NCBI GenBank assembly: GCA_013180605.1
Contig: QBUL01000180.1
Coordinates: 4,899-39,398, forward strand
DNA length: 34,500 bases
Origin: Candidatus Methanophagaceae archaeon GoMg1
Lineage (GTDB): Archaea; Halobacteriota; Syntropharchaeia; Alkanophagales; Methanospirareceae
Direction: 5' to 3'
Under the pieces are notes generated by a model. It saw only the letters and a program-made list of their open reading frames with translations. It had not been told where the DNA came from and made no database searches. The translations under genes were made by a program, and so were the position numbers. Position 1 is the first letter of the stretch; every line of letters begins with the position of its first letter. Below are positions 10,330 through 31,623 of the stretch, in pieces.

Positions 10330-10375
10330 AGGGAGATAAAAAGACGGGAGTGGTAAGTAGATATTTTTAAAAAAA

Positions 10376-10383
10376 AGGAGGTG
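10376..10383 (+). promoter_or_regulatory. Very strong ribosome binding site
   Basis: AGGAGGTG is a near-perfect anti-16S match 11 bp before the ATG at 10395. It follows a run of A residues and suggests that the helical His-bearing protein is made in larger amounts than its operon partners. Confidence 0.6.
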
Positions 10384-10394
10384 AAAAAAAGAAT

Positions 10395-11126
10395 ATGAAC
10401 ACGAAAAGAATGGTTGGAATTGTTGCAGTGGCAATAGCAATGCTGTTGGTCATAACGAGCGCTTCGCCAGTCATGGCGCAAGATGTATCCACATTGGTGG
10501 AAAAAATAGACAAAAATATGGCGGAGCTTAAAGAAGCCGCAGAGGTCATGCACGAGGAGACGAAAGTGATCATCCATGGTGTCGAAGGTATGCCGGATGA
10601 AATGAAAGCTACGGCTAAGACAGTTCATCTGAGCAGCCACGCTCTCAAGCACATTGAGGTTTATATGGAAAGCTATATCGGGAAGCTTGACACCTATAAA
10701 GCCGAGCCTGAGAAGAACAAAGCAAAAATGTTGGTTACTGTGGGAAAAATCGAAGCACTTCGGAAACTGTATCAAGACACTATAGATGCAGGTGACTTTG
10801 TAACTACTATGAGGTTGCCGGTTACAGGTAAATCGCCGTATGACTTGATACATGTACTTATAGAGAACCCGGATGTCCAGGCATCACCGGAAGCCATAAG
10901 TGCTGCAGGCGATGTACACACTGCTGTGCATGATCTCGACGATGCAGCCCAAGCTATGAGGCTCAATTTAGAAGAACTTGAACATGCATTAGCAGAACTT
11001 GAAGAACCAACGACAGCAGCAGCAGCAGCGCCGACACCCGCACCGAAAGCGCCGGGATTCGAAGCAGTATTCGCAATTGCAGGTATTTTAGCAGTTGCCT
11101 ACATGGTGTTTAGAAGGAACAGGTGA
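10395..11126 (+). CDS. Surface-anchored helical His-bearing protein with PGF-CTERM tail
   Basis: A 243-aa exported protein of no family I recognise. Residues 1-28 are a signal peptide (ending near SPVMAQ). Residues about 30-200 are strongly helical and coiled-coil-like and carry nine histidines in short segments such as VHLSSHALKHIE, VMHEETKVIIHG and DVHTAVHDLDD. An Ala/Pro/Thr linker leads to PGFEAVFAIAGILAVAYMVF plus a basic end, the PGF-CTERM signal that places it on the outer face of the membrane. It sits inside the cobalt ECF operon, between the CbiM partner and cbiQ, where other lineages encode metal-delivery proteins. A cobalt-capturing role is a reasonable inference from place and His content, not something the sequence proves. 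The strong ribosome binding site supports the start. Confidence 0.8.
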   Translation: MNTKRMVGIVAVAIAMLLVITSASPVMAQDVSTLVEKIDKNMAELKEAAEVMHEETKVIIHGVEGMPDEMKATAKTVHLSSHALKHIEVYMESYIGKLDTYKAEPEKNKAKMLVTVGKIEALRKLYQDTIDAGDFVTTMRLPVTGKSPYDLIHVLIENPDVQASPEAISAAGDVHTAVHDLDDAAQAMRLNLEELEHALAELEEPTTAAAAAPTPAPKAPGFEAVFAIAGILAVAYMVFRRNR

Positions 11127-11157
11127 TTACTGCTATAAATAAACAATTTTTCCCTTA

Positions 11158-11178
11158 TTTTTTTTTTGGGGGGGGGGG
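11158..11178 (+). terminator. T10 tract followed by G11 tract
   Basis: Ten T residues (11158-11167) are followed directly by eleven G residues (11168-11178), 32 bp after the stop of the His-bearing protein gene. An oligo-T run on the coding strand is the usual archaeal intrinsic termination signal, so partial termination before cbiQ is plausible. The G-run is unusual and may be prone to length change or sequencing error. Confidence 0.45.
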
Positions 11179-11238
11179 AAAAGCAGAGGTAGAGCATGGG
11201 TGCTTCAATGGCATATATTTGGAGGAAGGTGAAGAGAA

Positions 11239-12015
11239 ATGATAGAATATCCCGAGATAGACAGGTATGCATCGCTTGATTCGCCGATGCATCGCTTTGA
11301 CCCGAGAGCAAAAGTAATTGCCTTCCTTTTTCTTATTTTTTCTATCGTTCTCCTCAATGATTTAAAGCTTGTTCTTATTGGCTTTATCGTTTCTATCCTC
11401 TTTCTCATCGCTTCAAAACTACCGTTTCATTTTGTTATTCAGCATTTGAAAGGGGTCTCTTTATTTATCCTCCCTTTTCTTGTCATTATGCCCTTTACAG
11501 TGAAAGGGAATGAAATCTTCAGCTTCTACGCTATAAAAGTGACCTACGAAGGTTTAAGATATGGTATTTTAGTAGTTCTAAAGGCTTTTTCTGCGGTTAT
11601 GCTCATTTTCCCGATGATTGCGACCACGAAGTTCGAAACGACGCTGAAAGCACTGGATAAGTTAAAGGTACCGAATATTCTCGTCCAGATGCTTATGTTT
11701 ACGTATCGCTACCTCTTTGTTTTTGTGAATGTGTTCCAAAGGTTATTGATCGCGATGGAATCAAGAGGGTTCAAACTGGGAACTAGTTCATACGCATTGA
11801 GAACGATAGGTAACGCGCTGGGAATGCTTTTTGTTCGAAGTTACGAGAGGGCAGAACGCGTATATTTGGCAATGCGGTCACGCGGATATGCGGGGAGCCA
11901 GAAGACGCTGGTGGGATTTAAAATGTGTACGAAGGACTATGTATTGGCAGTTTTTATTATTGCGTTTGCGGTTTGTTTGCATATAGTTTGTTATGCAGGA
12001 GTAGGAGTGGTGTGA
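11239..12015 (+). CDS. cbiQ: Cobalt ECF transporter transmembrane coupling subunit CbiQ
   Basis: A 258-aa membrane protein of the CbiQ/EcfT family, which couples ATP hydrolysis in CbiO to CbiM. Five or six hydrophobic segments are visible. The two coupling helices carry the family Ala-Arg-Gly-type motifs: AMESRGFKLG near residue 170 and AMRSRGYAG near residue 210. The N-terminus SPMHRFDPRAKVIAFL is typical. The ribosome binding site (GGAGGAAGGTGA) fits the ATG at 11239. It is followed 6 bp later by cbiO, and the M-accessory genes lie upstream, so the order is the usual one of the operon with one extra gene inserted. Confidence 0.93.
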   Translation: MIEYPEIDRYASLDSPMHRFDPRAKVIAFLFLIFSIVLLNDLKLVLIGFIVSILFLIASKLPFHFVIQHLKGVSLFILPFLVIMPFTVKGNEIFSFYAIKVTYEGLRYGILVVLKAFSAVMLIFPMIATTKFETTLKALDKLKVPNILVQMLMFTYRYLFVFVNVFQRLLIAMESRGFKLGTSSYALRTIGNALGMLFVRSYERAERVYLAMRSRGYAGSQKTLVGFKMCTKDYVLAVFIIAFAVCLHIVCYAGVGVV

Positions 12016-12021
12016 AGAAGA

Positions 12022-12936
12022 ATGAGAAAAGAAGCGATAACCATAAGGAACCTCTGTTACACTTATCCCGACGGTACAAAAGTGTTGGAAGATGTAAGTT
12101 TGGAAGTGTATGAGGGCGAAAGAATTGCGATAGTGGGACCGAACGGAGCAGGCAAAACGACTCTTTTGCTGCATCTTAATGGAATACTACGTGGTAGTGA
12201 TGGACAGGTAGACGTGTTCGGTAAGAGCGTGGACAAGGTGAAAAGAGAAGAAATAATAAAGGATGTGGGTATTGTTTTTCAGGACCCGGATGACCAGTTG
12301 TTCATGCCCACGCTATTCGATGACTTAGCTTTTGGTCCGATAAACATGGGTTTAAAAGAAGATGAGGTGCGGGAGCGAGTAGAAAAAACCATTTTGTCGC
12401 TTGGACTCATGGGTTATGAGAACAGGTGTCCACATCATCTCAGTGGTGGCGAGAAGAAAAAAGCAGCGCTGGCTGCGGTTATGTCCATGGAGCCGAGGAT
12501 ACTGGTGCTTGACGAGCCGACTGCCAATCTCGACCCGAAGAGCCGTGCAGAGTTGATAAAAATAGTGAAGGACCTGAACGAACGAGAAGGGATTACCGTG
12601 ATAATGGCGACGCATGACGTAAATGCTGTCCCGGCACTTGCCGACCGTGTGTTCGTGCTGAACAAGCGGGTGATTGCGGAAGGCACGGCACAGGAAATAT
12701 TTTCGGATGGCGACCTGATGAATGCGAACAATCTGGGGGTGCCCGAAGTGTTCAAGCTGTTTGAAGTGCTGCGGTGTTTTGGCTACAACTGCGAAGAGCT
12801 GCCGCTGTCAATAGACGAAGCGATTGAACACCTGACGAGGACGGTGGAGGTTAATGGTGGGCACATTCATCTGCATATCCACGAGCATACACATGACGAG
12901 GTGAAGAAATTGAGGAGTAAGTATGAGCACCATTAA
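12022..12936 (+). CDS. cbiO: Cobalt ECF transporter ATPase CbiO with His-rich tail
   Basis: A 304-aa ABC ATPase. Walker A is GPNGAGKTT (about residues 39-47), the Q-loop region reads GIVFQDPDDQLFMPT (typical of ECF ATPases), the signature is LSGGEKKKAALA, Walker B is ILVLDEPTANLDP, and the H-loop is ATHDVNAV. It energises CbiM-CbiQ. The last 30 residues are an added His-rich tail (GGHIHLHIHEHTHDE and a closing YEHH) that could bind cobalt or nickel at the cytosolic face as a sensor or buffer; that is inference. The ATG follows cbiQ by 6 bp. A T-rich stretch (CTTTTCTTTTTT, about 12938-12949) after the stop could end the transcript. Confidence 0.92.
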   Translation: MRKEAITIRNLCYTYPDGTKVLEDVSLEVYEGERIAIVGPNGAGKTTLLLHLNGILRGSDGQVDVFGKSVDKVKREEIIKDVGIVFQDPDDQLFMPTLFDDLAFGPINMGLKEDEVRERVEKTILSLGLMGYENRCPHHLSGGEKKKAALAAVMSMEPRILVLDEPTANLDPKSRAELIKIVKDLNEREGITVIMATHDVNAVPALADRVFVLNKRVIAEGTAQEIFSDGDLMNANNLGVPEVFKLFEVLRCFGYNCEELPLSIDEAIEHLTRTVEVNGGHIHLHIHEHTHDEVKKLRSKYEHH

Positions 12937-12983: not shown

Positions 12984-13724
12984 ATGGCAGAGATAAGTAA
13001 CCTTGTTACAGTAGGTGTGCTTATAGGCGTAGCAATTCTAGCATTAAAAACAGGCTTAGGATGCGGTTTCGCCAGTTTAAAGAGAAGGGAGATTGTTTAC
13101 ATAGCGTTTATTTATTTTAGCGCCTCTATCGTCCTTAGCTATTTAGTGGGGGTTATCGCTTTGGATGTAACGCAAAATATACTTGCAACAGGTGTTATAA
13201 TGCATCTTATCATCGCAACAGGACTCATGTATTTCGGTATAAAAACGAAGAGGGAATGGCTTTCTTATGGCAATGACCTTTCAAGGAAAACTTTCCTATT
13301 GCTCTCTGTTCCATGCCCGGTATGTTTAACAGCGACATTTTTAGCTTGTTTGATGCTATCTCAGCTCACCGACATCAGCAACCTGTGGATAGGTACCCTA
13401 GTGGGCGTGATCTTCTTTATCGGTGTATGCTTCTTTTCATTTGCGGTTTCTTCAATCGCAAGGGTTTTCAAAATCAAAAACCCTTCCACACTTGGAACGG
13501 TTATGTTATTATTTGGTCTATTTTACCTTTTATCGCCTTTAATAATCCCTGCATATATTCAGGCTCAAAGCATTCCAATCCCTAAGTTCTCGGTAGATTA
13601 TCACAAGATTTTTATTTCATTCTTAGTGATGACCTTTCTTATAGGGCTTGGATTTTTAATGGATAAGCATAAAAGATTGAAGAAGAAAAAAGGGGGCGAA
13701 ACATGGATGCATCTTCAGGAATAA
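12984..13724 (+). CDS. DUF2162 family polytopic membrane protein
   Basis: A 246-aa protein with about seven or eight membrane helices and a basic cytosolic end (KHKRLKKKKGG). It matches what I recall of DUF2162, annotated as a predicted transporter in methanogens and found next to MotA/ExbB-like, DUF2149 and CobN genes. A pair of cysteines, Cys111 and Cys114 in VPCPVCL, lies at the start of a helix, and LGCGFASL occurs near residue 28; paired cysteines could bind metal or form a disulfide. The ribosome binding site GGAGGTGAGG (about 12970-12979) is strong. The 3' end overlaps the next gene by 22 bp, so the two are translated together. Substrate unknown; metal or tetrapyrrole movement is a guess from context. 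Confidence 0.78.
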   Translation: MAEISNLVTVGVLIGVAILALKTGLGCGFASLKRREIVYIAFIYFSASIVLSYLVGVIALDVTQNILATGVIMHLIIATGLMYFGIKTKREWLSYGNDLSRKTFLLLSVPCPVCLTATFLACLMLSQLTDISNLWIGTLVGVIFFIGVCFFSFAVSSIARVFKIKNPSTLGTVMLLFGLFYLLSPLIIPAYIQAQSIPIPKFSVDYHKIFISFLVMTFLIGLGFLMDKHKRLKKKKGGETWMHLQE

Positions 13725-14320
13725 TCGGGGCAATGTTCATGATTTCGAACTCGCTGCTCTATCCCGTAATTATTATACTGCTTGGGCTGGTGGCATGGTC
13801 GATTATTTCCATCGGGCAGTTTTTGTCAGAATATGCATCGAGAAGCAGGGATATAACTAAGCTAAAGGCGGGATGTAGTGATGCAACGAAATGTATCCAG
13901 GAGCGAGATTACAAAAAAGCCGCAGAAGCTCTGAAGACAAGTGGCTCTAATGACCTACTCAGAGATTTTTTAGATGACATTGCAGAATGTCTAAAAGAAA
14001 ACAAATTCTCGGTCGAGGTAGAGAAGCTGCTTCAGGACTATGAACTAAGGATAACAAGAGAGCTTGAAAAGGCGAGGTTGGTGGTAAAGCTGGGACCTAT
14101 GTTCGGCTTGATGGGCACATTGATACCGTTAGGACCCGCGCTAATGGGGCTCTCAACAGGAGATATCCAGCAGCTTGTAACTAATATGGTTGTTGCATTT
14201 AGCACTACGGTTCTCGGGCTTCTTACCGGTGGTATAGCATATGCAATCTTAATAGTCAAAAAGAGATGGTACACGCAGGATTTGAGTGATATGGAATACG
14301 TGGTGGAGATGTTAAGATAA
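13703..14320 (+). CDS. MotA/TolQ/ExbB-like proton channel subunit
   Basis: A 205-aa membrane protein with the ExbB/TolQ layout: one helix near the N-terminus (about residues 12-36), a large cytosolic loop, then two helices close together (about 130-152 and 162-186). The segment LVVKLGPMFGLMGTLIPLGPAL and the following AFSTTVLGLLTGGIAY are the signature of the MotA/TolQ/ExbB channel family, which uses ion flow to drive a partner protein. No TonB, outer-membrane receptor or flagellar gene is nearby. The partner here is probably the DUF2149 protein encoded next, and the driven machine probably the surface CobN-like proteins. Start ATG overlaps the DUF2162 gene; ribosome binding site AGGGGGCG. 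Confidence 0.85.
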   Translation: MDASSGIIGAMFMISNSLLYPVIIILLGLVAWSIISIGQFLSEYASRSRDITKLKAGCSDATKCIQERDYKKAAEALKTSGSNDLLRDFLDDIAECLKENKFSVEVEKLLQDYELRITRELEKARLVVKLGPMFGLMGTLIPLGPALMGLSTGDIQQLVTNMVVAFSTTVLGLLTGGIAYAILIVKKRWYTQDLSDMEYVVEMLR

Positions 14321-14321
14321 A

Positions 14322-14666
14322 ATGAGAAGGCGGAGAAGGCGGTTGATTTTGGATGATGATGAAGACCCGCTGGGTGGGGTGGCAAACCTGTTTGACGCCG
14401 CGATGGTCTTTGCCGTTGCACTGCTCATCGCACTCGTAATGTCAGCGAGTGTGCCGGAGCTCTTGAATCCAACTGCAGATATAACCGTGGTGAAGAATCC
14501 CGGAAAAGAGAACATGCAGGTGATTATCAAAAAAGGGCAGGAGATAAAGGTGATGAACATGACAGAAGAATTGGCGGGCGGTCAAGGTATGAAATTGGGA
14601 ACTGCATACCGGTTGGCAACCGGAGAGACAATATACGTGCCGGAAAATGCGACAGGGAAGAATTAA
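14322..14666 (+). CDS. DUF2149 protein, ExbD-like single-helix partner
   Basis: A 114-aa protein that starts one base after the ExbB-like stop. It has a basic cytosolic start (MRRRRRRLI), an acidic stretch DDDEDPLGGVANLFDAA, one membrane helix (about residues 24-46), and an outside domain of about 65 residues. This is the ExbD/TolR topology, and it fits DUF2149, which accompanies ExbB-like and CobN-like genes in methanogens (from memory). The acid residue before the helix (FDAAMVFAVALL) is in the position where ExbD has its key Asp. I infer that it transmits motor movement to the outside domain of the next genes' products. Confidence 0.78.
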   Translation: MRRRRRRLILDDDEDPLGGVANLFDAAMVFAVALLIALVMSASVPELLNPTADITVVKNPGKENMQVIIKKGQEIKVMNMTEELAGGQGMKLGTAYRLATGETIYVPENATGKN

Positions 14667-14736
14667 CTAACCCCTCAGCTTACACAACACTTTTTCTTTT
14701 TCACAAAAAACTTTTTTGCGAAGCAAAAGCCTTTAC

Positions 14737-14769
14737 AAAACTTTTAAGAAAAGTTTTATCAAAAACGCT
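14737..14769 (+). repeat. 33-bp repeat shared with 25915-25947
   Basis: AAAACTTTT, a 3-base loop, AAAAGTTTT and ATCAAAAACGCT occur here and at 25915-25947 with no other difference than the loop, which is AAG here and CTT there. The two loops are inverse complements, as if the hairpin tip had flipped. It belongs to family 2. Confidence 0.65.
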
Positions 14770-15035
14770 TCGCGGAAATACAAGTTTCTTTGGTAAAGCT
14801 TTCTTTTCTAAAGAAACATTCATGACCCATAGGGACATCCATGAGCATGAAAATAATAAAGTATTTTCATACCAAAGGTTTGTGCTAAAAGAAAAAGAAA
14901 TATGTTACGTCCGCTTCACTTTCCTTATTCCATCATACGTTTCAAAATTTCTTTCTCGCGGGAATCTCGTAGTTTCTCTTTTATCTTCCTCTGTACTATT
15001 ATGAGGATAAAGATGACCCCTTAACTTTGTTATCT

Positions 15036-15083
15036 ATTTGAGTTATAACTCTTACCATAATATGAAAAATAGAAAGTCTTATA
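15036..15083 (+). promoter_or_regulatory. Promoter of the CobN operon, twin of the cbiM promoter
   Basis: ATTTGAGTTATAACTCTTA (15036-15054) again contains GTTATAAC, here within a longer palindrome GAGTTATAACTC. TGAAAAATAGAAA (15063-15075) and the TATA box CTTATAT follow in the same order and spacing as at 9101-9150. A start of transcription about 25 bp after the TATA box would fall near 15105, giving a leader of only about 15 nt before the ATG at 15119. Confidence 0.65.
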
Positions 15084-15118
15084 TGCTGTTTCTAATCTTA
15101 CTCTCATTTGAGAGAAAA

Positions 15119-18100
15119 ATGATGAAGAATAAAAGTTGGGAGTTAGCGGTGTTGCTGGTGTTAGTGCTGTTCATGGCGCAGATATTTACGCCATTTGTGG
15201 TCGCACAGGCACAGTTGGAAGTGGACTTCGTTACGTCCCTTCCAATCAGCACGCAGACAGGTGCAGAAGGAGCGTTTTGTTTCGTCAATCTATCTGCTGG
15301 CACCTATACACTCACTGCGTATATAGAAAGTGGAAGGGGCAATGCCCTGGGCTCTGTAACCGCTACACTTGGTGAGGGCGAGCATATCGAGTGTGTGACA
15401 ATCAATGCAAGCGTGGATCAGGCAACCGATGAGGCTTTAAACGCTGCCAAGAACGCTACTGGTTCTTACAACTCTTCTGCACTCTCCGGGACTGGGTCTA
15501 TCAGTGGAAACGCTAGAATCTTAATGGGTCCCAATTATGTGGGCATTCCCGGCATAACCGTTCTTATCACCGGTTATGAGGATAGTTTGGAAGATTATGT
15601 CCATCAGGAATCCGCTCCTACGACAACAACTTGCGAGGGTGGCTACTTCAGGTTCAAGAACCTTCCAGCCGGTAATTATACACTCACAGGGTATGCAGCA
15701 GGAGAGAATCCTATGGGTGTAATGTGTTATGCGGTCGGTAACGTCACTTTAGAGCTTTTTGAGGGCGATACGATCGATGATGTTCTGGTGAGATTGGAAC
15801 CCAACGATGAAGCGGGTGTAAATGCTGCCAGAGCACTGAATGCAAGCTACCTGAATAACGGCTTAGGGGGCAAGGGGATGATAACGGGAACTGCGCTCAT
15901 TCACATGGGTGGGCCATACTTAGGGATTGCCAATACCACGGTTGCTATTACCACCTACACAGGTAATGGCTCGCTTGAAGATGTTGTAGGTGTCTTGCTT
16001 GAGAGTACAGAATCACCAAAAGTCATAACTGACGAGAACGGGCTCTTTGAGTTCACCAATCTTCCGGCTGGTAATTACACATTCATCGCGCACAAGTACA
16101 TCCCTTCTATGGCTCCAGGCATGCCAGGCATCAACAAGACAGTCACCTTTACAGTTGAACTCAGAGAAGGGGCGCATTATTCTACGGGTGAGCGTCTCCT
16201 CGATACCACAGACGATGCCGAATTCGTAGCGGCACTATCACAACGCAAAGTGCTCTATGAACGCAATGGCACGGTAGGAAGTGGTATCGTTAATGGAACT
16301 ATTCTATCAGTTGGCATAGCTGGTGTTGCATCTCCATCAGAGGGGGTGACGGTATATCTATACACCTATGATGGTGAGGGCTCACTCTCAAGAGTAAACA
16401 AGGAAGTTGTATCGAACGAGTTCGATGCGCCTAAGGTGATCACGGATGAGGATGGTGTATTCACTTTCTCCCATCTACCTGCTGGGAATTATATGATAAC
16501 CGCACTAAGCCCTTCTGGTACCGCAATCGGGAGTTTCACCACAGACATAGAGGCAGGTGAGCATATTAGCAATATTGAGTTATTATTAACCGGAACCCCC
16601 GACTGCGAAACCGCTAATGCCATCAAAAACACAACCTACGTTAATTCCGGAGGCTCCTATGGCACGGGTTCAATCTCTGGCACGGTGCTCATGGAGATGC
16701 CACCGGGATCTTCCAATGCGCAGCCTGTATCCTCTGCATTGGTTATCATAACCAGCTACACCGGTGACGGGAATCTCGGAAGCGTAAATAAAGAGCTAAA
16801 GATGGCGTTTTTCTCGATATCTGATGCCGATATCTTTTTGATCAAAAGAGCAGCAGAAAATATCGGGCTGAATATAAGCGTGTATAATAATTATAATGTC
16901 CCTTTGGACCTGAATCTAACAACTTATGACGTGATATTTGCATCCCGGTTGTACACAGAACCGATACAGAACGTAGTTGTGCCCATACTCGATGCAGCAA
17001 AAGAGCACAATGTATCTGTAATATGCACCCATCCTGCTGATTTGAGCAATATTGACCTTGTTGAGCACCCATACATCATGCAATATTGGAGCAGCCGTAA
17101 CACCAGGAACATGGAGCGACTCCTGGTTTATCTTGGTGTCGAGTTCTGTGGCCTGGATAGTGTGATTGAAGAACCGAGCGTCATCCCTAACGAGGGAATC
17201 TACCATCCGGATACCGATAGAATCTTTGACAGCTTGAACGAGTATCTTGATTGGTATGAAAACGATACAGGCACTCACCACATTTACAATCCCGATAATC
17301 TGACGTTAGGGCTTGTGTTCTGGAAGGAACGATATGGTACAGGTGAAATAGGCGTAGTGGATAAGTTCATCCGGGAAACAGAGGCGCGAGGCGCGAACGT
17401 AATCGCTGCGTATCCACCATTTCTGCTATTTGAAGAAAATATGACTGGAATCTTCATAGATGACGGTGAGCCGGCAGTTGACGTCATGATAGACCTTGGG
17501 TTGGGAATGGGCCCGCTAACAGTGATGGTAAAACAGCGTGAATATCTCGAACTCTTAGACGTCCCGGTAATGAAATGTGTTGAATTGTATTCAACCATAG
17601 AGGTATGGGAGAATGGTACCACAGGCAAGGGTCCTTATTTCAATATGCAGATTCCGGTAATGGAAATTGCGGGAGAGATAGAGTTTATTGTTGTCGGTGG
17701 CAGAGTGTACAATGAGACATACGATGTATCGTTATTACAACCCATTGATAGCCAGGTAGAGTGGGCTGTGGACCGGGCACTCTCGTGGAGCAATTTGCAA
17801 TATACGAATAACAGCGAGAGAAAGGTTGCAATCATATATTATCACCATTCTGTGGGCAATGATAGCTGCCTGGTTGCGGCAAACCTCGACGTTGCGCCAA
17901 GCATCGTGAATATTCTTCATGCTATGGATGACCGTGGCTATGCACTCGGTGAGAATATCCAGACAGACAAGGAACTGCTGGATTTGGTGCTGAAACAGGG
18001 TAGAAATATCGGGATATGGGTGCCTGATCAGATAAAATACGTGGCTGAGAACTGTGACGTAGTGCTTGTACCGGAAGATGAATATTTAGCCTGGTTCAAT

Positions 18101-21100
18101 GAACTACCGGAGCAGAAACGGAGGGGGGTAATCGAGCGCTGGGGTCCGCCACCAGGTAAGATCCTGGTCTATGAAAATGAATCCGGTAAGTACATCATGA
18201 TACCAAAGATTTCGCTCGGTAACGTTCTGATCGCGCCACAGCCATCGCGTGCAGGAACGCAGAATATGACTGCTCTGTATCACGATAAATCCGTGCCGCC
18301 CACGCATCAGTATATCGCATTCTATTACTGGCTGAGCCATGACTATGGTGCAGATGCAATCGTGTCTGTCGGCAGGCACGGAACACAGGAATGGCTGCCG
18401 GGAAAGGGTGTTGGGTTATCGGTAGAAGATTGCTGGCCCGCGATTTTGATCCAGGACATGCCCGTAGTCTACCACTACGAAGTAGAGGGGATCGGCGAAG
18501 GCGTTATGGCGAAGAGACGGGGCAATGCGGTTATGATCGATCATCTGACACCTGTGATCGTTGCAGCAGGACTATACGGGAATCTATCAAATCTCGAACA
18601 GACGATACCGCTGTACGAACAGGAGGAGAATGGCACGCTCAGGAACAAGTATAAAGAGCAGATATTAGAGATGTGCCGAGATCTGAATCTCGATCACGAT
18701 TTGGGCGTTGGTCTGGGCGAGATTGCTGCTGGCAATGAGACTGCCTTTGATGAGTTCCTTGATGAGATGCATGATTATCTACTGGAGATAAAGAGAGAGT
18801 ACATGCCCTACGGCTTGCATATTATGGGAAAACCGCTCTCTAACGATAGCATTGTTGATATGACCAAATCACTGCTCGGATATGAATTCAGGGATTATAT
18901 CGAAAGTATGAACATCTCCGTGAACCAGACGAGAATGCTTCTTGAGGCAGTGATAATTAAGGGAACATCACCGAAAGAGGCACAGGAGAAGGTGTTGGGT
19001 AGATTAGAAAATGTTACCGAGTCCGTATCAGAGAACATGACCGCATTGGCAAAAACAACCACAGGTGAGGATGGTAATTACACGTTCTCTAACCTCGCTG
19101 CAGGGAATTACACTATATCCGCGCTAAAATATATATCTGGAATGAGCTGCTGGTTCATAGGCGGTATAAATACCAGTGTGGACGATGGTGAACATCTCAA
19201 CGGAATCGAGGTCTGGCTGACATTCGGAGATGAGGCAACTGCAAACGATATATTGAATATGACTGATGATCCGGATAGCATAGCCGGTGCTTCCTCGATC
19301 TCTGGTGTAGTACTCGCGCAGGGCCGTTATGGTGTAACGCCAATGGATGGCGCAACGGTAATTATAAGCAGACAGGATGCATCAGATGATGCGATACCAG
19401 AGGAGACACCACTTACAAACTTCTTGAATCTCGCGGTAGTGTACGCCGAGAATCTTCGTGAATGCATGATTGAAATACCAAGAACGTTAGACGCACTTGA
19501 AGGGCAATATATCCCTCCAGGGCCGAGTAACGACCCAATCAGAAATCCGGATGTGTTGCCGACCGGGCGGAATTTCTATGGTTTTGATCCTAATATCGTG
19601 CCAACGGAACCTGCATGGGAGGTGGGTAAGGAACTGATAGATCAATTGCTCTCTAAATATTATAACGGAACTGATGCAAGTTATCCAAAGAAGATCGGCT
19701 TTGTTATGTTCTCATTTAATACAATGAAGGATTTGGGCGTGCTTGAATCTGAACTCTTCTATCTGCTGGGTGTGGAGCCTGTATGGGATAGAAACAAGAA
19801 CGTCATTGATGTTCGTCTTATACCGATAGAGGACTTGGGTAGACCAAGAATAGATATCGTTGTCACCATGAGCGGTATATATCGCGAGAACTGGCCGCAT
19901 CAGATCGAGTTAATCAATAAAGCGGTACGCATAGCATCTGAATCGGATGATTCGCCCTACCACAGGAACTATGTGAATGAGAGTACTCAATCAACATATA
20001 ACTGGCTGATTGAGCACAACTATACCGAATCGCAGGCACGAGAGCTCTCATTGACACGTATTTTCGGACCTCCGGATGGTGTGTGGGGTGTTGGCGGATT
20101 CACTGGCGCCATTGGAGGAAGTGGTACATGGGAAAACGAAAGTACGCTTGCAGACCTCTATATCCGGAATATGGGCAATGTGTATGGCGATACGATCTGG
20201 GGTGAGCAACACGTAGACCTATTCAAGCAGAATCTCAACGGAACGGAGGTAGCACTATTCGGGTGGGCATCGCATTCCCACAGCGTGCTCGGCATTGACC
20301 ATACTTTCGAGTTCTTTGGTGGACTGAGCATGGCGGTTCGCGAGATTACAGGTAAGGCACCTGATATGTACATAAGCAACCTCAAGGATCCAAATGGCGC
20401 AAAGTTAGAGTCGTTGAGTCATGTCATTTTGAGGGACTTGCGTTCGATGTACTTTAATCCCTATTGGATCGAGGGCATGATGGGACATGATTATGCGGGT
20501 GCCAGAGCGATAACAGAGATCATGGCGAACCTCTGGGGCTGGGATGTCACATGCCCTGATGTCATAACGGAAGAGATGTGGAACGAGATGTATTCGATCT
20601 ATGTACAGGACAAATATGACCTGGGGCTACAGGATTGGTTCGATGAGAACAATCCATGGGCTCAGCAATCCATCACTGCGAGGATGCTCGAAGCGATAAG
20701 GAAAGGTTATTGGGATCCATCAGAAGATGTAAAGACCAACCTTGCAGAGACATATCAAAAATCAGTCGAAGAATACGGTGTTACATGCTGTCATCATACC
20801 TGTGGCAATCCGCTGTTTCAGGATTACCAGCAGGGCATAGTTTCAATTCCTGAACAATCTACGGAACAGAGCACGTATTCCACTGGTGGCGGGTCTCGTA
20901 GAATTACAGAAGAAGAAAACGGTGAAACTGTCACAAATATGACAGAAACTACCGGTGTGGGCAAAACAGGAGAAGAATTGAAGAAACAGCCGGAGAAAGC
21001 ATCGGAGAAGAGAGGAAAAGTAATGAAAGAGGAGAGGCCAGTGGAATCATCGGCATTCGCTGTATCTAGTGCCCCGTTGATGGGAATTATAGCAGTGATT

Positions 21101-21154
21101 GTGGTTTTAGTGCTGATTGGCATTGGATTGGGACTTAAGCGGAGGAAAAGGTAA
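15119..21154 (+). CDS. CobN1: giant surface CobN-like metal chelatase with interleaved regulatory-type domains
   Basis: A 2011-aa protein related to CobN, the large subunit of cobaltochelatase, but exported. The start at 15119 is chosen because it matches CobN2 (MMKNKS...) and lies after the promoter. Signal peptide about 1-33. Residues about 45-490 hold four carboxypeptidase-regulatory-like repeats ([12 protein letters not shown] type). A fifth such domain begins at about 514, is interrupted by the first CobN half (about 561-1309), and resumes at about 1311 ([17 protein letters not shown]). A sixth starts at about 1391 and runs into the second CobN half (about 1430-1904). The chelatase loop [12 protein letters not shown] (1085-1096) is intact, with His1087 and Glu1091. 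A Cys/His cluster TCCHHTCGN includes Cys1890, Cys1891 and Cys1895. A charged linker leads to a membrane anchor (about 1980-2004) and RRKR. Outside location and the ExbB/DUF2149 genes upstream suggest chelation or dechelation at the cell surface; substrate unknown. Confidence 0.85.
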
Positions 21155-21156
21155 AA

Positions 21157-24100
21157 ATGATGAAGAATAAAAGTTGTGGGTTAGCGGTGTTGGTGTTGTT
21201 GGCGTTGTTCGCGGCGCAGATATTTGCGCCATTAGCGGTTGCACAGGCACAGTCGGAAGGTGATGAGACGACTGTGAATGAGAACTTGAGTTTATCTGCG
21301 AGTGCGTCAGAATATACCAGTGCGAAAGCTATAACTGACGAATCAGAGAAGAATGAAATAACCTTTGTGCTTGGAACGGATGAAAATTTAATCTCGCTTG
21401 AAAACGCATCAATGGATGCTACTGTGAACGCTACAATTGAAGTTATAATATACAATGCAACAGAATCGAAATTGGCGAATTTCAGCAACGGAAGCGTTGT
21501 TTTTCTCGCTTCTCTTGACAACGAAACCGTTGCGAGCATAAGTCAGACGATAAATGAAAGTGCGTATGTGTTTGCATATAATCTCAGTACAAATATAAGC
21601 ATTGGGTATGTTGAGGATATAAACATCACGAAGTACTGGGTCTATGGCAGTGATGAGAACATCGAGAATCTCATTTTATACATGAATAACACCTTTTATG
21701 GTGGCGATACAGCGGTGAGTTCGCCTGAGCCGCCTGAGGGTAGGGCTAAGATTGCGTTTGTACTCTCCCAACCGTGCGATATAAGCCTTGTGAATCTGGT
21801 ATCTAACGATCATTTCATCAGCGATATGATGAATGTAACAACTTATTCCGCGCGCTCGGGTGATAATCTAAGTTTCAATTTGAGTGGTCAAGATGTAATT
21901 CTTTTATATCATCTTATGCCTGCTGTGGTTGAAGAATTGACTAAGACAGTCAATGATGCTAAAAACAACAGTGCAGATGTTATCGCGATCAGCCCCTCTG
22001 AACAATCATTCGATATGCACAATGTGAACCTCTCAGATCCAGAATATTCAGACATCAAGAAGTATTTAGAATATCCCTCAGAGGAGAACACCAAACGTCT
22101 TATAGTATTTATAGGTGTTAAATTCTGTAATGTCAGCGAAGAGATATTACCGCCAATATCAAGACCAATTTACGGAATCTACCATCCTTATGCACCAGAG
22201 ATTTTTACGAATACGACCGGTTATTTCGAATGGTATAATTCCACTGGTAGATATAATTCATCAAATCCAACAGTAGGAATTGTAACTGGCAGTTATAAAC
22301 GTATGGACAGAGATTCTGCGTTGCTGAATGTGTTGATAGAATCATTTGAATCGAGAAATGTGAATGCTATCGTCTCAACGTATACGTACCACGACCCAAA
22401 TTCTACAGAGTATCTGATGGAAGATGGTAAGCCGGTTGTGGATAGCGTTATTATCATATCCCGCGGGAGTCGGCTCTATTATAAAAACGCATCAAAAGGC
22501 ATAGCGGATTTACAGCAGTTGAATGTTACTGCACTCAATGGGATTCGATTATTCTATAGTATGACCCAAGAGGAATGGGAAGCAGGTCCGCACGGTCTCC
22601 CACCAATACAATCTTATCAGGTAGCTTTTGCAGAGTTGGATGGTATAATCGAGCCGATTGTTATCTGTGGAAAGGCAATTGATCCGATAACTGAAGTTGA
22701 ATATAACAAACCGATCGAGTACCAGATCGAATGGCTGACTAATCGAACAATTTCGTGGATGAGATTACATCGCATGGATAATTCAGACAAGAAGATCGTC
22801 ATACCGTACTATAGCGCAGGTGGAGGCAAGGCGAATGTTGGGTCAGACATTGATTATTATCTTGATACGCAAGCGAGTCTTACGAATCTGTTAGTTGCAA
22901 TGAAGAAGAGGGGCTACGATCTTGGAACTAAACCATTGCCAAACAAAACAGAGCTTGCTGAGTTGATGGCACATCAAGGTAGCAATTTCGGGACATGGGC
23001 ACCCGGAGAACTGAATAAAAGGGTACAGCAGGGAAATGTAATACTGATACTGAAGAGCGAATACCTCGACTGGTTCGATGAACTTCCTGAGAATAAAAGG
23101 AATGAAATGATAGAGCGGTGGGGAACTCCACCTGGTGAGATCATGGTTTTTGAAAACAAAACCGGACAATATCTTGTCATCCCAAAGATTCAGTTTGGTA
23201 ACGTATGGCTTGCCCCGGATCCCACATGGGGATGGCTTCAGAATGAATCTGTGATGTACTATAACGGTTCGATACCACCGACTCATCAGTGCCTTGCATT
23301 CTATCTCTGGCTGAAGAAAGAATTCGGGGCTGATGCAATCTTTGCTATATTTACGAGCATAGAAGCGATGCCCGGCAAAGAGTGCGGTCTGTCAGCACAC
23401 GATTGGGGTGCCATTCTTCTCCAGGACATGCCGTTGATCCATGTACTTCCGATGGATGCGGAGGGAATATTTGACAGACGGCGGGCTAACATGCTCATTG
23501 TGGACTTTATGACGCCAACGATCGTTCCATCTGGCTTGTATGGAAATCTGTCGAGTTTGCAACAGGGGATAAGTTTCTATAATCAAGCAGCAGATGAAGT
23601 ATTGAAAGGGAGATATATGGATAGGATATTGGAAGAATGCCGGAATTTAAGCATCGATAGAGACTTAGAAGTTGATCTTAATGTAATTGCAAGCAACACA
23701 ACGGTATTTGAAGGATTTCTTATTCGATTGAGTAACTACTTACAAGAGTTGAAGACCGAATACATGCCATACGGTTCGCATACATTGAGCGAACCGCCGA
23801 CCGGTGATAGTTTGGTGGCACTGGTGGAGGCAATGCTCGGTGACGAATTTAAACATAATGTTTCTGTGATAAATTCATCCGAAGGACTTACAACGAGGCT
23901 GCTAACTGAAGTATTACTCAACGATTTAAGTCCCGCTGATGCACAAAATAAGGTCTTGGGGACTGTATCGTTAGGCATCACACAAGATTTGAATCTTGCA
24001 GTAGAATATGCAAACAGGATAGCTGCATGCACTATCGAAATACCAAGGATATTGGATGCTCTGGAAGGTAAATATATTCCACCTGGTCCTAATGGCGATC

Positions 24101-25713
24101 CCATAAGGAACCCGGACGCTCTGCCAACTGGAAGAGACCTATGTACCTTCGATGAGCGGCTTATACCAACAGAAGAAGCGTGGGAAGTTGGTAAAGATAT
24201 GGCAGACCATTTATTGGCGCAGCGTATTAATGAGACCGGAAAGTATCCACGAAAGATAGCGTTTTTACTTTGGTCAATAGAGACATCGAGGCATCAGGGC
24301 ATAATGGAATCAGAGATATTTTATTTACTTGGTGTAAAGCCGATCTGGGACAAGAGGGGGCGTGTGAAAACAGTTGAACTGATAAGTTCAAGTGAACTCG
24401 GGAGACCGCGGATAGACGTAGTTGTTACGACCTCGGGGTCATACCGAGATATGTTCTCCGGCAAAATCAAATTAATCGATAAAGCAGTTCGGTTAGCTGC
24501 TCAATCGAACGATACTGAGTATCCCAATTATGTCAAAGAAGATTCTGAATTGATCTATCGGGCATTGATAGGCGCGGGCTATAACGTATCTGAGGCACGT
24601 AGTCTTTCGATGGCACGGATATTTTCTCCTCCGCCTGACTCATATACACCGGGACTACAAAATGCAATCCCGGCAAGCGATACGTGGGAAGATACAGAAA
24701 AGCTTGCAGAACTCTATATTGACAGGATGGGTTACGTATACGGAGAAGAGATTTGGGGCGAACATCTAACCGATCTGTTCACGCAGAATCTCAATGGAGT
24801 AGAAGTAAGTGTTTTCAGCCGCAGCTCGAACGTTTACGGCGTATTAGACCACCCGATGGTTGCTACTTACTTTGGAGGATTGAATTTAGCTGTTAAGAGT
24901 GTCTCAGGAAATGCACCTGATATGTATATAAATAACCTAAGAGAGCCAAACAATCCAAAAGTCGAGACATTGAGTCGATTCTTAAATAGAGAACTCCGTG
25001 CAAGATACTGCAATCCGAAATGGATTCAAGGAATGATGGAGCATGGATACGATGGAACAAGGTATATGGCACAATTCACAGAAGACCTGTGGATGTGGGA
25101 TGTCGTTACGCCAGACCTCATCACAGAAGATATGTGGAATCAAGTCTATGACGTATATATCCAGGACAAATACGATCTCGGAACAAAGGACTTCTTCGAC
25201 AGCAACAACCCGTACGCACAACAATCCATCACCGCGAGAATGCTCGAAACGATAAGAAAAGGCTATTGGAATCCATCAGAAGACGTAAAAACAACCCTTG
25301 CAGAGACATACCAGAAATCAGTCGAGGAACACGGTGTAACATGCTGCCATCATACCTGTGGGAACCTGCTGTTACAAGATTATATGCAGGGCGTACTTTC
25401 GGCTCCGGAACAATCTCCGGAACAGAAAACATATTCCGGAGGTGGCGGGTCTCGTAGAATTACAGAAGAAGAAATCGGTGAAGGTGCCACAAACATGACA
25501 GAAATGGTGGGCGTGAGTAAGGAGGGGGAAGAATTGAAGGAACCGCCAGAGAAAACAGCGGAGGAGAAGAAAGGAAAAGTAATGAAAGAGGAGAAGCCTG
25601 CGGAATCACCGGCATTTCCTATATCCGGAGCCCCGTTGATGGGAATTATAGCAGTGATTGTGGTTTTAGTGCTGATTGGAATTGGATTAGGGCTTAAACG
25701 AAGGAAAATGTAA
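21157..25713 (+). CDS. CobN2: surface CobN-like paralog with a degraded chelatase loop
   Basis: A 1518-aa tandem paralog starting 2 bp after the CobN1 stop, with its ribosome binding site (GGAGGAAAAGG) inside the CobN1 end. Signal peptide about 1-33, then an Asn/Thr-rich glycosylation-prone region (about 34-195) in place of the CobN1 repeats, and one uninterrupted CobN-like region (about 195-1410). The loop that in CobN1 reads [12 protein letters not shown] is shortened here: residues 729-741 are [13 protein letters not shown], so the His and Trp are gone and two residues are deleted while Glu736 remains. The cluster TCCHHTCGN is kept (Cys1396, Cys1397, His1398, His1399, Cys1401). The charged linker and terminal membrane helix are almost the same as in CobN1. 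It is probably a non-catalytic partner or a binding protein. Many NxS/T sites fit a surface location. Confidence 0.83.
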
Positions 25714-25724
25714 GAGATAAGAGA

Positions 25725-25898
25725 ATGGATGAGATAACAAGAGTGATAAAGGAGCTGTTCTGGCTACTTCAGAACGTGAATATAGCTGAAGAAGATTATA
25801 ACGTCGGAATCGAGATTGAAGAACGAATTGAGGAAATAAAACAAGAGTTGGGCTCATGGTTTATCAGCGATTATCCAAAGCTTTATCAGGGCTCATAA
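25725..25898 (+). CDS. Small coiled-coil-like protein, GSWFI family copy 2
   Basis: A 57-aa protein that starts 11 bp after CobN2, with GAGATAAGAGA upstream as a weak ribosome binding site. It carries MDEITRVIKELFWLLQN, IEERIEEIKQELGSWFI and a closing YQGS. It is a paralog of the protein at 5347-5514: same size, same motif order, and an element of the same family after its stop. It is charged and helical, with no signal or membrane segment. Retention of the protein motifs despite changes in the DNA suggests selection for the product. It may be a cytosolic or assembly factor for the surface corrinoid proteins; this is inference from its two positions only. Confidence 0.72.
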   Translation: MDEITRVIKELFWLLQNVNIAEEDYNVGIEIEERIEEIKQELGSWFISDYPKLYQGS

Positions 25899-26081: not shown

Positions 26082-27434
26082 ATGAGTGGATTAAATGAGA
26101 GAAGCATGAAACAGAAAAGTTCGGCTTTCACAGTCGCAGGAACGCACAGTGGAGTGGGAAAGACCACGCTCGCTGTCGGGCTTATTTCCGCGTTTCGTCG
26201 CCGTGGATACGATGTCCAGCCGTTCAAAGCAGGTCCTGACTTCATAGACACGAGCCTGCACACGCTTGCCGCGGGAAAACCGTCAAGAAATCTTGATACG
26301 TTCATGATGTCCCGTTCTGCGGTTATCCAATCATTCAGGAAGAACACGTCGAAAGTGAACATCGTTGAGGGCGTTATGGGCCTCTTTGATGGCGCTTCCG
26401 CAGCCGCTGGAGGGCAGGGGAGCACCTCGCACCTTGCGAAACTATTGGGCATCCCGGTAGTCCTCGTTGTTGATGCGTCCGGGCTTGCGGGGAGCGTTAG
26501 CGCATTAGTCCACGGGTACATGACCTTTGACCCTTCGCTAAAGTTCGCAGGCGTCATCTTGAACCGAGTTGGAAGTGAACGGCACAGGGAACTACTTGAA
26601 GAGGCATTACGAGGAGTCACGACTGTTTTTGGGGCTATTCCCAAGGACGAAGCAGTGAAAATCCCGGAAAGACACTTGGGGCTTTTTATGGCTCATGAGG
26701 TTGACCGCACGGTATTAAACGGCTATTCAAAGCTCGTAGAGGAGAATATAGATATGGATATCTTGCTTGAAGCGACAGAGGTTGAGATTCCAGATGCAGA
26801 GCCGGAGCCAGAGTCACAATTAAAGGCTGTTGATGGCGTCAGAGTGGGCGTAGCGATGGACGAAGCGTTCTGTTTCTACTACCCGGAGAACTTAGACATC
26901 TTGCGTAATTTCGGTGCGGAAGTCGTCCCATTCTCCCCGCTTCGGGACGCTTTACCTGACGTTGATGCTTTCTACATCGGTGGCGGCTATCCTGAACTAT
27001 ACGCAAAGCAACTGGAAGAGAACGGTTCTTTACGTGAGGCGCTTGTTGATGCGATCCGGCATGGGTCACCGCTCTACGCGGAATGCGGTGGCTTGCTTTA
27101 CTGTCTTGAGCAACTCGAAGACAAGAAAATGCTTGGCTTATTCAAAGGTTCAGCAAAACTCACAAACCGGCTCCATGCTGTGGGCTATGTCGAAGCCGTT
27201 GCCGTAGCGGACAGTCTTCTTTTTTCGCGCGGTGCGAGATTCCGCGGGCACGAGTTCCATTATTCCACGGTGAACGGAGTTATGGCGGAATTCGCATACG
27301 AACTTCTAAAAGGTGTCGGAATAGAGAGCAAACGGGATGGAATCTTCAGAGAAAACGTTCTCGCTTCATACACGCATCTTCACGCATTGGGAAACGAGAA
27401 AGCGTTCCTCAGGTTTCTGGAGGCTGCGAGGTGA
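26082..27434 (+). CDS. cbiA: Cobyrinate a,c-diamide synthase CbiA
   Basis: A 450-aa cytosolic enzyme that uses ATP and glutamine to amidate the a and c side chains of cobyrinate. The N-terminal ATPase domain starts TVAGTHSGVGKTT (P-loop at residues 20-28), followed by VQPFKAGPDFIDTSLH and NIVEGVMGLFDG, all typical of CbiA. The C-terminal domain is a class I-like glutamine amidotransferase with the nucleophile Cys335 in YAECGGLLY, a GRF-like HEFHYST segment and a closing SYTHLHA. Length is usual. The ATG at 26082 follows GGAGTAAG; an inner Met (26109) is possible. The next gene starts 4 bp after the stop. Confidence 0.93.
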   Translation: MSGLNERSMKQKSSAFTVAGTHSGVGKTTLAVGLISAFRRRGYDVQPFKAGPDFIDTSLHTLAAGKPSRNLDTFMMSRSAVIQSFRKNTSKVNIVEGVMGLFDGASAAAGGQGSTSHLAKLLGIPVVLVVDASGLAGSVSALVHGYMTFDPSLKFAGVILNRVGSERHRELLEEALRGVTTVFGAIPKDEAVKIPERHLGLFMAHEVDRTVLNGYSKLVEENIDMDILLEATEVEIPDAEPEPESQLKAVDGVRVGVAMDEAFCFYYPENLDILRNFGAEVVPFSPLRDALPDVDAFYIGGGYPELYAKQLEENGSLREALVDAIRHGSPLYAECGGLLYCLEQLEDKKMLGLFKGSAKLTNRLHAVGYVEAVAVADSLLFSRGARFRGHEFHYSTVNGVMAEFAYELLKGVGIESKRDGIFRENVLASYTHLHALGNEKAFLRFLEAAR

Positions 27435-27438
27435 TAAA

Positions 27439-29010
27439 ATGGCGAAAAGGATAATGGTGCAGGGCACGGGGTCGGGCGTGGGCAAGAGTGTGATTGTGGC
27501 GGCGCTTTGCCGCATACTCACACAGGATGGATACAAAGCCACTCCGTTCAAATCGCAGAATATGTCGCTTAACAGTTATGCTACTGCAGATGGTCTTGAA
27601 ATAGGAAGAGCGCAGGCATTCCAGGCGTTCGCCGCTCGTAAAGAGCCGACAGTGGAGATGAACCCTATTTTATTGAAACCCACAAGCGACACGGGCGCTC
27701 AGGTTATCGTGCGAGGGAGGCCCATAGGCAATATGACGGCGAAGGAATACCACGACTACAAACCCAGAGCATTGAACCTCATAGAGGACTGTTTTGAGAA
27801 ACTGAACCGTGAAAACGACGTGGTGGTGATAGAAGGTGCAGGCAGTCCCGCAGAGGTGAACCTTCGCGAGAACGATGTCGTGAATATGAGCATCGCAAAA
27901 CTTTTAGACGCGCCCGTTGTGCTCGTTGGCGACATAGACAAGGGAGGCGTCTTTGCGTGGGTCGTGGGAACGCTGGAGTTGCTTGAGGAAGAAGAGCGGG
28001 AGTTGGTGAAGGCTATTCTGATAAACAAGTTCCGCGGGGATATAGACATACTCAAACCAGGACTGGAGTTCCTTGAGAAGCGAATCAATAAACCCGTGAT
28101 TGGCGTTATTCCTTATTTCCAGGATATATGGATACAGGAAGAGGACTCTGTATCCTTGTCAGTGGCGAAAGGGAAAACGACTGTAACGAGCGAGGAAAAA
28201 GCGATAACGATAGAAGTCGTTCAGTTGCCGCACATAGCCAATTTCACTGATTTTGACGCTTTAGAAGTTGAGGATGACGTTTCGCTACGTTACGTTGGCG
28301 GTGGAGAAAAATTAAGCGAGCCTGATGTGATAATCATACCAGGGTCAAAGAACACGATAGGCGACCTGTCGTACCTAGAAAATAGCGGATACGCATCGCA
28401 GATAGTTGATAAGGCGATGAGCGGGAAGTGTGAGGTTTTTGGAATCTGTGGCGGCTATCAGATGCTCTGTAGCTCCATAACGGACCCGGAAGGCGTAGAA
28501 TCAAAGCTCGGAGCGACCGAAGGGCTTGGGCTGCTGCCTGCTACAACGGTATTTGAAAGTCATGCACGGAAAATGACGAATCAAGTGCGGGCGATGGCTG
28601 ACTTGCCGTTCTATAGTGGAGAAATAGCGGGATATGAAATACACATGGGCAGGACTTATTTCTCCGAGGGTAAGATAAAGAATGCGTTCAGGATATTCGA
28701 GCGTTCAGGAGAAAAGGTTATAGACGATGGTGATGGAGGTGGCGGTGCTGTTTATGGTAACGTTATCGGGACTTACATACACGGGATATTCGATAATGAT
28801 GCTTTCAGACGAGCTTTTTTGGACCACGTGAGAGCGATAAAGGGGCTGCTTCCGTTGCGTGCGGACGAAACCAAAAGCAAAGACAAAAATACGCGCGGGA
28901 TTGATTGGGATGCGGAATACAATAAGTTAGCAGACGTCGTGCGGAACAATGTTGATATGGATAAGATATACGATATAATTTTTTTTAGCAGTAGCGAGAG
29001 GTATGGATAA
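27439..29010 (+). CDS. cbiP: Cobyric acid synthase CbiP
   Basis: A 523-aa enzyme that amidates the b, d, e and g side chains of adenosylcobyrinate diamide with glutamine and ATP. It has the P-loop GTGSGVGKS (residues 9-17), the family stretch PFKSQNMSLNSYAT, and VVIEGAGSPAEVNL in the ATPase domain. The amidotransferase domain has Cys337 in FGICGGYQML and His448 in GTYIHGIFD. An upstream start exists in frame, but it lies inside cbiA and reads as unrelated sequence; GAGGTGA just before the ATG at 27439 decides the start. It is slightly longer than usual, with a Lys/Asp-rich insertion near 470. Cotranscribed with cbiA and cbiT. Confidence 0.93.
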   Translation: MAKRIMVQGTGSGVGKSVIVAALCRILTQDGYKATPFKSQNMSLNSYATADGLEIGRAQAFQAFAARKEPTVEMNPILLKPTSDTGAQVIVRGRPIGNMTAKEYHDYKPRALNLIEDCFEKLNRENDVVVIEGAGSPAEVNLRENDVVNMSIAKLLDAPVVLVGDIDKGGVFAWVVGTLELLEEEERELVKAILINKFRGDIDILKPGLEFLEKRINKPVIGVIPYFQDIWIQEEDSVSLSVAKGKTTVTSEEKAITIEVVQLPHIANFTDFDALEVEDDVSLRYVGGGEKLSEPDVIIIPGSKNTIGDLSYLENSGYASQIVDKAMSGKCEVFGICGGYQMLCSSITDPEGVESKLGATEGLGLLPATTVFESHARKMTNQVRAMADLPFYSGEIAGYEIHMGRTYFSEGKIKNAFRIFERSGEKVIDDGDGGGGAVYGNVIGTYIHGIFDNDAFRRAFLDHVRAIKGLLPLRADETKSKDKNTRGIDWDAEYNKLADVVRNNVDMDKIYDIIFFSSSERYG

Positions 29011-29011
29011 A

Positions 29012-29738: not shown

Positions 29739-29768
29739 AGGAAAATTATACTTTATGTACAACGAGAA

Positions 29769-31601: not shown

Positions 31602-31623
31602 GGAAGGAGTCGAACAAAAGCCT

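Follow-up and report, generated by a model that had tools for sequence, protein, structure and literature searches.

A row of six tightly packed genes in Candidatus Methanophagaceae archaeon GoMg1, located in a 34,500-nucleotide stretch of contig QBUL01000180.1 (positions 4,899 to 39,398; hereafter the window, to which all coordinates refer), encodes two giant homologs of the chelatase subunit CobN that are predicted to be exported and membrane-anchored, together with a putative ExbB/DUF2149 motor and a membrane protein of the DUF2162 family. With evenly balanced confidence, we interpret this module as the archaeal counterpart of HmuS-HmuT-HmuU-HmuV, that is, a surface tetrapyrrole (de)chelatase or receptor that would be coupled to the proton-motive force (PMF) and serve in the salvage of cobalt, nickel or corrinoids. 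An original prediction, made from the letters of the DNA, had listed the same parts as a motor-driven surface chelatase; all of them are present, and the exported, anchored CobN tied to an ExbB/ExbD-like motor rather than to CobS and CobT stands, with the substrate and the coupling of the motor being what we infer.

The genome that holds the window (2.34 Mb, 86% complete) belongs to the ANME-1 (anaerobic methanotrophic archaea)/Methanophagales kin given that its same-family relatives include ANME-1-THS and G60ANME1. All six genes lie on the plus strand. The DUF2162 gene, for a multi-helix membrane protein, comes first (12984..13724; PF09930, 4.6e-58) and is followed by the genes for an ExbB/TolQ/MotA-like ion-channel subunit, the HmuU counterpart (13703..14320; PF01618, 4.2e-10), and for an ExbD-like DUF2149 protein with a single transmembrane (TM) helix and a small external domain, the HmuV counterpart (14322..14666; PF09919, 1.1e-34). 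Next come the genes for the two CobN homologs, CobN-A (15119..21154) and CobN-B (21157..25713), and a helical open reading frame (ORF) of 57 amino acids (aa) (25725..25898). CobN-A probably starts at ATG 15119 rather than at TTG 15038, where the open frame begins, because the resulting N-terminus, MMKNKS, matches that of CobN-B; the product would have 2011 aa. The 57-aa ORF belongs to no known family (an NCBIfam search yielded no match) and, because a tblastn search found it conserved behind CobN in two ANME-1 relatives (61-67% identity; L059 and L078), the sequence comparison indicates a real gene. The order of the genes is not fortuitous since it recurs in many archaeal genera and several bacterial phyla.

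Both CobN proteins match the family profile PF02514 along almost its entire length (positions 2-1088 of 1090; 1090.6 bits for CobN-A and 1039.3 bits for CobN-B). CobN-A consists of a signal segment, several carboxypeptidase-regulatory-like beta modules, the HmuS/CobN body with an extra beta module inside domain IV, and a C-terminal TM anchor; CobN-B consists of a signal segment, the CobN body and a C-terminal TM anchor. The predicted export and anchoring rest on hydropathy, not on a dedicated signal-peptide predictor: in each protein, there is a hydrophobic segment at the N-terminus and another one, followed by basic residues, at the C-terminus, with none in between. Neither segment is present in the third CobN of this genome (contig C121) or in other cytosolic-type CobNs.

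Among the structures in the Protein Data Bank (PDB), the best match for both proteins is HmuS (9d26; 1.3e-148 for CobN-A and 6.4e-140 for CobN-B), with CobN and ChlH behind. A tree of 105 sequences of domains V-VI, built with a quick method and supported by the Shimodaira-Hasegawa-like approximate likelihood ratio test only, is divided by a split with a support of 99 into 78 motor-linked sequences (anchored archaeal CobNs, HmuS, and Planctomycetota and proteobacterial forms) and 27 others (cytosolic archaeal CobN, Mycobacterium CobN and ChlH). CobN-A and CobN-B belong to different supported clades, so that a recent duplication can be rejected. Nearly all archaeal anchored CobNs contain the tail motif CCHHTCGN just before the anchor (plus strand, 20786..20809 in CobN-A and 25342..25365 in CobN-B). 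Methanosarcinales often encode two or three tandem anchored CobNs behind one motor, with different active-site motifs (L104, L116, L137, L142, L148, L153, L156 and L048).

The association between the anchored CobNs and the motor is nearly strict. We surveyed 296 genomes of the phylum, all at least 90% complete except for that containing the window, using a profile that includes the Cys/His tail and separates the anchored CobNs (E-values of 1e-58 or better) from the others (1e-38 or weaker). In 78 genomes, an anchored CobN is accompanied by DUF2149; one genome has only the anchored CobN, seven have only DUF2149 and 210 have neither, in counts that ignore phylogeny; 95 of the 296 genomes encode other CobNs only. 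The sole exception among the 79 genomes with an anchored CobN is fragmented, and thus free occurrence of such CobNs without motor genes, which the original prediction had named as an observation that would count against it, was not seen. DUF2149 is spread over 26 of the 116 genera. Among the 80 named loci that were found by way of DUF2149, those with enough sequence show an adjacent ExbB gene in 72 of 72 cases, a DUF2162 or HmuT gene in 61 of 70, and a CobN gene at a distance of at most 2.5 kb in 48 of 60.

By sequence, the motor genes resemble the ExbB/ExbD type, with a PF01618 channel and a single-TM partner that carries a conserved membrane Asp. The motifs GPMFGLMGTLIPLGPAL and FSTTVLGL of the MotA/ExbB protein are near-invariant (94 sequences), Asp25 in the TM helix of DUF2149 is invariant (43 sequences), and the DUF2149 protein of the window is 50.5% identical to the Bacteroides HmuV; profile searches of PDB with DUF2149 gave nothing useful. 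The genome encodes only two MotA_ExbB proteins, each beside a DUF2149 protein. Protein-family searches of the 86%-complete genome detected no TonB-dependent receptor plug (PF07715), no ExbD (PF02472) and neither CobT nor a real CobS, the CobS search giving only an 18-bit AAA match; the PF01078 (Mg chelatase) matches are weak, the best one being a LonB-like protease ORF, and do not represent a chelatase motor. Nor was the second observation seen that the original prediction had named against itself, a complete CobS/CobT set elsewhere together with a cytosolic location of the CobNs, which by hydropathy are not predicted to be cytosolic. Because CobS/CobT, ExbD and TonB-dependent receptors are missing from this genome, an outer-membrane receptor cannot be what the motor works for here, and CobN probably is.

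A second ExbB-DUF2149 motor, without CobN, was identified beside giant surface proteins in several genomes including that of the window (L029 on contig C170; also L032, L034, L036, L041 and L065). These surface proteins contain CARDB, PQQ propeller, beta-helix and alpha-toroid domains, with one weak, sub-cutoff Cobalamin_bind match, and the locus adjoins, in several cases, BtuF/BtuC genes and a B12-type DUF71 gene. Judging by these domains and neighbors, this could possibly be a motor-driven archaeal corrinoid receptor.

To compare the active sites, residues of HmuS, the sequence of which was assembled from PDB alignments (residues 32-717 and 932-1388), were used as landmarks. The two CobNs of the window differ, a feature overlooked in the original prediction, which had correctly recognized both as family members. 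CobN-A retains the domain III His that corresponds to HmuS His-538, in GRHGTQEW (HGTQEW at 18377..18394, plus strand), and, in the domain V segment DHTFEFFGG (20297..20323, plus strand), the His and Glu that correspond to His-1209 and Glu-1212 in the HmuS motif LSLDHxxEFMGG, the rest of which is different. In CobN-B, TSIEAM occupies the site of the invariant HG(T/S)xE[WF] motif (23353..23370, plus strand), with the catalytic His absent, and a divergent segment replaces the domain V motif DNDDYFQYLGG or DHxxEFMGG (24847..24879, plus strand), with both the Glu and the motif spacing of HmuS gone. By domain layout, the Met-rich insertion in domain IV of HmuS has no counterpart: its place is taken by a beta-sandwich module in CobN-A (approximately residues 1312-1455) and by only a short linker in CobN-B.

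The anchored archaeal CobNs fall into three active-site groups. Most of them combine HG(T/S)(Q/H)EW with DNDD[YF]FQY, so that domain V is like that of Mycobacterium CobN. The second group, with the DHxxEF pattern of HmuS, includes CobN-A, its 95%-identical relative (L078) and the homolog from Methanococcoides seepicolus. The third group consists of CobN-B and eight other proteins without the domain III His, where F..F[ST] is found, and with DHPMVA[ATS]YFGG or a near variant in domain V. These B-type proteins form a clade (support 99) that is represented in ANME-1, Methanoculleus, Methanofollis and Methanosarcina, and the ratio of nonsynonymous to synonymous substitution rates (dN/dS) is 0.11-0.16 in two informative comparisons. 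Because the clade spans archaeal groups and evolves at such dN/dS values, these alignments identify the B type as a maintained pseudo-chelatase, an old clade under purifying selection; given the age of the clade, its presence in three archaeal groups and these dN/dS values, CobN-B is not a decaying copy. By the same alignments, HmuS His-538, reported to be invariant, is not conserved in the B clade, which contradicts that report. A further active-site variant is found in the motor-linked CobNs of Planctomycetota (L143, L160, L161 and L163); these retain the domain III His, but the domain V motif reads SNK[Y]xWYKGG and the tail is Gly-rich, in place of CCHHTCGN.

The module lies, as originally noted, between genes for cobalt uptake and for synthesis of the corrin ring, all on the plus strand. 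Upstream are genes for two BtuF-like binding proteins, a radical SAM protein, a FecCD/BtuC permease and an ATP-binding cassette ATPase (594..8873), followed by those for CbiM, a NikL-like subunit, a PGF-CTERM protein, CbiQ and CbiO, which make up a cobalt/nickel energy-coupling factor (ECF) importer (9224..12936). Downstream are cobB/cbiA, cobQ/cbiP, cbiT, cbiL, cbiF and the N-terminal part of cbiG, genes of the cobalt-early corrin pathway (26082..32028). The cbiG gene (31594-32028) encodes 144 aa that cover only about the first 130 positions and is possibly split or frameshifted. In ANME-1 relatives, the module adjoins CbiMQO, CbiT/L/F or CbiA/P. In seven of the relatives (L043, L044, L045, L051, L057, L062 and L063), the gene immediately before it encodes a DUF71 protein of the B12 subgroup, marked by the His of GEYHT, a position that is Glu in Dph6. 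The second BtuF-like ORF of the window (3089-5350) begins with KVFSLWNGGKNSSLACYK, similar to the N-termini of the B12-type DUF71 proteins (KVFSSWSGGKESCLACYK) that stand before DUF2162 in relatives, and is perhaps, as the likeness suggests, the remnant of a gene fusion. An exact 21-base pair element, AAAAGTTTTATCAAAAACGCT, is found on both sides of the CobN pair (14749-14769 and 25927-25947), where no such repeat is expected by chance; it looks like a piece of a longer AT-rich intergenic repeat.

In bacteria, the module is found inside a hyp hydrogenase cluster in Runella, near nikR and FecCD genes in Azospirillum, and near B12 genes in Trichlorobacter. Furthermore, a cobN operon of Pseudomonas is induced by zinc starvation (PMC4542158), and a Methanothermobacter-type CobN1 is abundant only under nickel limitation (PMC12350162), although these two may or may not belong to the motor-linked group. 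The common thread of these contexts is metal scarcity, with the metal differing.

We propose the following scenario for the function of the module. A protein of the class I chelatase fold (CobN/HmuS/BtuS family), tethered to the external side of the membrane, would catch an extracellular tetrapyrrole or metal chelate with its chelatase head and body; the ExbB-like channel and DUF2149 would then probably move CobN at the expense of the PMF, supplying the kind of conformational work for which cytosolic chelatases use the ATP-driven CobST/ChlID motor, and the captured metal-tetrapyrrole would be opened, stripped or handed over. The released cobalt or nickel could enter through the adjacent ECF importer, and a corrinoid through the BtuF/FecCD-like system. 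CobN-A is the likely catalytic subunit and CobN-B could be a non-catalytic receptor or scaffold. DUF2162, in which K22, G26, D98, P110, C111, P112 and C114 are invariant and C27 and H74 near-invariant (46 sequences), might pass metal or electrons across the membrane via Cys111, Cys114 and Cys27. Tentatively, as a possibility rather than an expectation, this scenario can be extended to a widespread class of extracytoplasmic tetrapyrrole chelatases driven by an ExbB/DUF2149 PMF motor that replaces the AAA+ ATPase, such that CobNs grouped in twos or threes, with at least one active member and in some cases an ancient pseudo-chelatase, harvest cobalt, nickel or corrinoids in ANME-1 and methanogens. 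If this is true, the same motor function, not energization of TonB, would be what HmuU and HmuV supply to HmuS.

Several observations weigh against the surface (de)chelatase interpretation. The role of the archaeal members is extrapolated from sequence, the characterized relative being the bacterial HmuS, and a Bacteroides fragilis btuS1/btuS2 double mutant still made protoporphyrin (PMC6460266), contrary to another report (PMC12583661). The heme ligands of HmuS, Met-79 and His-254 (HGR), are absent at the aligned positions of CobN-A and CobN-B; the full pair is present in all five bacterial HmuS controls, Bacteroides/Prevotella among them, and in no archaeal protein aligned. Most of the archaeal anchored CobNs contain DNDDYFQY, like Mycobacterium CobN and unlike HmuS. 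The motor is not CobN-specific because it is also found next to giant surface proteins without CobN, and the co-occurrence counts take no account of phylogeny. The structural model of DUF2149 is too poor for use (predicted local distance difference test score, pLDDT, of 61.5). The AlphaFold2 model of DUF2162 (pLDDT 84.6) matched no fold in PDB at E<=0.001, and the HupE-like protein of Runella fails to align; a role of DUF2162 as a HupE/NicO-type metal permease or a CcdA/DsbD-like electron carrier can be proposed only from its conserved Cys residues. The similarity between HmuT, which has no Pfam match, and DUF2162 is weak (hhalign probability of 39.5 over 93 columns), too little to place HmuT in the DUF2162 family.

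To our knowledge, there is no precedent for enzymatic removal of cobalt from a corrin ring, which counts against a de-chelatase and favors a receptor without chelatase chemistry. In that case, the anchored CobNs would do no more than bind corrinoids (or another metal-tetrapyrrole) outside the cell, and release to the BtuF/FecCD importer would be driven by the motor, with the ring metal unmoved. The BtuF/FecCD-type genes upstream, the second ExbB-DUF2149 motor beside giant surface proteins and BtuF/BtuC, the loss of the catalytic His in a whole subfamily, CobN-B included, and the B12-type DUF71 of the relatives (PMC3541065) all speak for this possibility. However, both the domain III His and an intact domain V motif are preserved in CobN-A and in most anchored CobNs, and the closest characterized relative removes metal (PMC12583661), so we consider a pure receptor fairly improbable. 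An iron-scavenging role like that of HmuS, whereby CobN-A would strip iron from external heme and the iron would be imported separately, is suggested by the HmuS-type DHxxEF of CobN-A and by the BtuS proteins of Methanosarcina barkeri, which vary with the iron source and have been proposed to act on heme (PMC10846266). This appears unlikely considering that the heme ligands are missing, that the neighboring genes are those for cobalt/nickel transport and corrin synthesis, not heme, and that DHxxEF, which is also carried by cytosolic archaeal CobNs (DLDHYYEF), is not specific for heme. Of the three activities that the original prediction had envisaged, insertion, removal and capture, insertion is the least likely; here, a metal-free corrin would receive its cobalt outside the cell. 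Most anchored CobNs do share the DD-F-Q-Y motif of Mycobacterium CobN, and a late chelatase for salvage has been suggested for haloarchaea (PMC8305020); yet the corrin pathway encoded in the window is the cobalt-early one, with CbiG among its members (PMC8305020), CobS and CobT were not found in the genome, there is no ATP outside and the corrin is made inside, which makes a surface cobaltochelatase very unlikely.

The surface (de)chelatase interpretation draws on systems that are already known. In gene content, the locus corresponds to the S-T-U-V portion of the hmu operon of Bacteroidota and belongs to a known kind, as indicated by the HmuS match, the shared gene set and the earlier proposal of 'BtuS'; the arrangement is therefore not new (PMC12583661, PMC10434189, PMC6460266). 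The hmu operon of Porphyromonas and Prevotella encodes HmuY, a TonB receptor, the CobN-like HmuS, the hypothetical protein HmuT, the MotA/ExbB protein HmuU and the DUF2149 protein HmuV (PMC10434189), and we observed the same order in Bacteroides finegoldii and Prevotella nigrescens. For HmuS, heme de-chelatase activity has been demonstrated; HmuU and HmuV have been assigned to powering the TonB receptor in Bacteroides, and the use of HmuS/CobN homologs in archaea, where complete hmu operons are missing, has been called unclear (PMC12583661). Both systems combine an exported, anchored CobN-like protein, a multi-TM protein, a MotA/ExbB protein and a DUF2149 protein in one operon, with HmuS as the best structural match and DUF2149 about 50% identical. 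Unlike hmuYRSTUV, the archaeal locus includes no HmuY, TonB receptor or outer membrane, the motor genes precede CobN and DUF2162 replaces HmuT; unlike HmuS, the archaeal proteins lack Met-79/His-254 and occur as tandem CobNs, one without catalytic motifs, in a cobalt/nickel and B12 neighborhood.

The BtuS type of CobN, proposed in 2003 by Rodionov et al. for metalloporphyrin salvage (as cited in PMC6460266) and annotated in M. barkeri (PMC10846266), is likewise CobN-related, exported, membrane-anchored and free of CobS/CobT; the archaeal motor genes and the degenerate subfamily were not found described in the earlier BtuS literature examined. CobNST and ChlHID share the chelatase fold, and CobN also the DD-F-Q-Y motif of most archaeal anchored CobNs, but are cytosolic, depend on ATP-driven AAA+ partners, have no motor genes and fall on the opposite side of the tree; a classical cobaltochelatase can be rejected on the latter ground and by the absence of CobS/CobT. 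The main contributions here are an archaeal S-T-U-V module without a receptor, an almost strict pairing between anchored CobN and DUF2149, and a subfamily of pseudo-chelatases. The locus opens both the driving force of such enzymes and their use in archaea to tests, and bears on how anaerobes obtain cobalt, nickel and iron from tetrapyrroles. Another close parallel is the pSZ77 cobN cluster of Trichlorobacter (Geobacter) lovleyi, where DUF2162, ExbB, DUF2149 and CobN stand in the archaeal order beside B12 genes and CobN shares the DNDD motif and the Cys/His tail with the archaeal anchored CobNs; in contrast to the archaeal loci, TonB receptors flank this cluster, and the bacterium has its own ExbB-ExbD-TonB as well (PMC3403914). 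The presence of the motor in addition to that system, the co-occurrence in archaea and the receptor-free genome together argue, short of proof, that it is the chelatase, or the membrane partner of the chelatase, that HmuU/HmuV-type genes serve, not an outer-membrane receptor as assumed for Bacteroides; the retention of S-T-U-V in archaeal loci, with no outer membrane and no receptor found, points to the same function of the motor.

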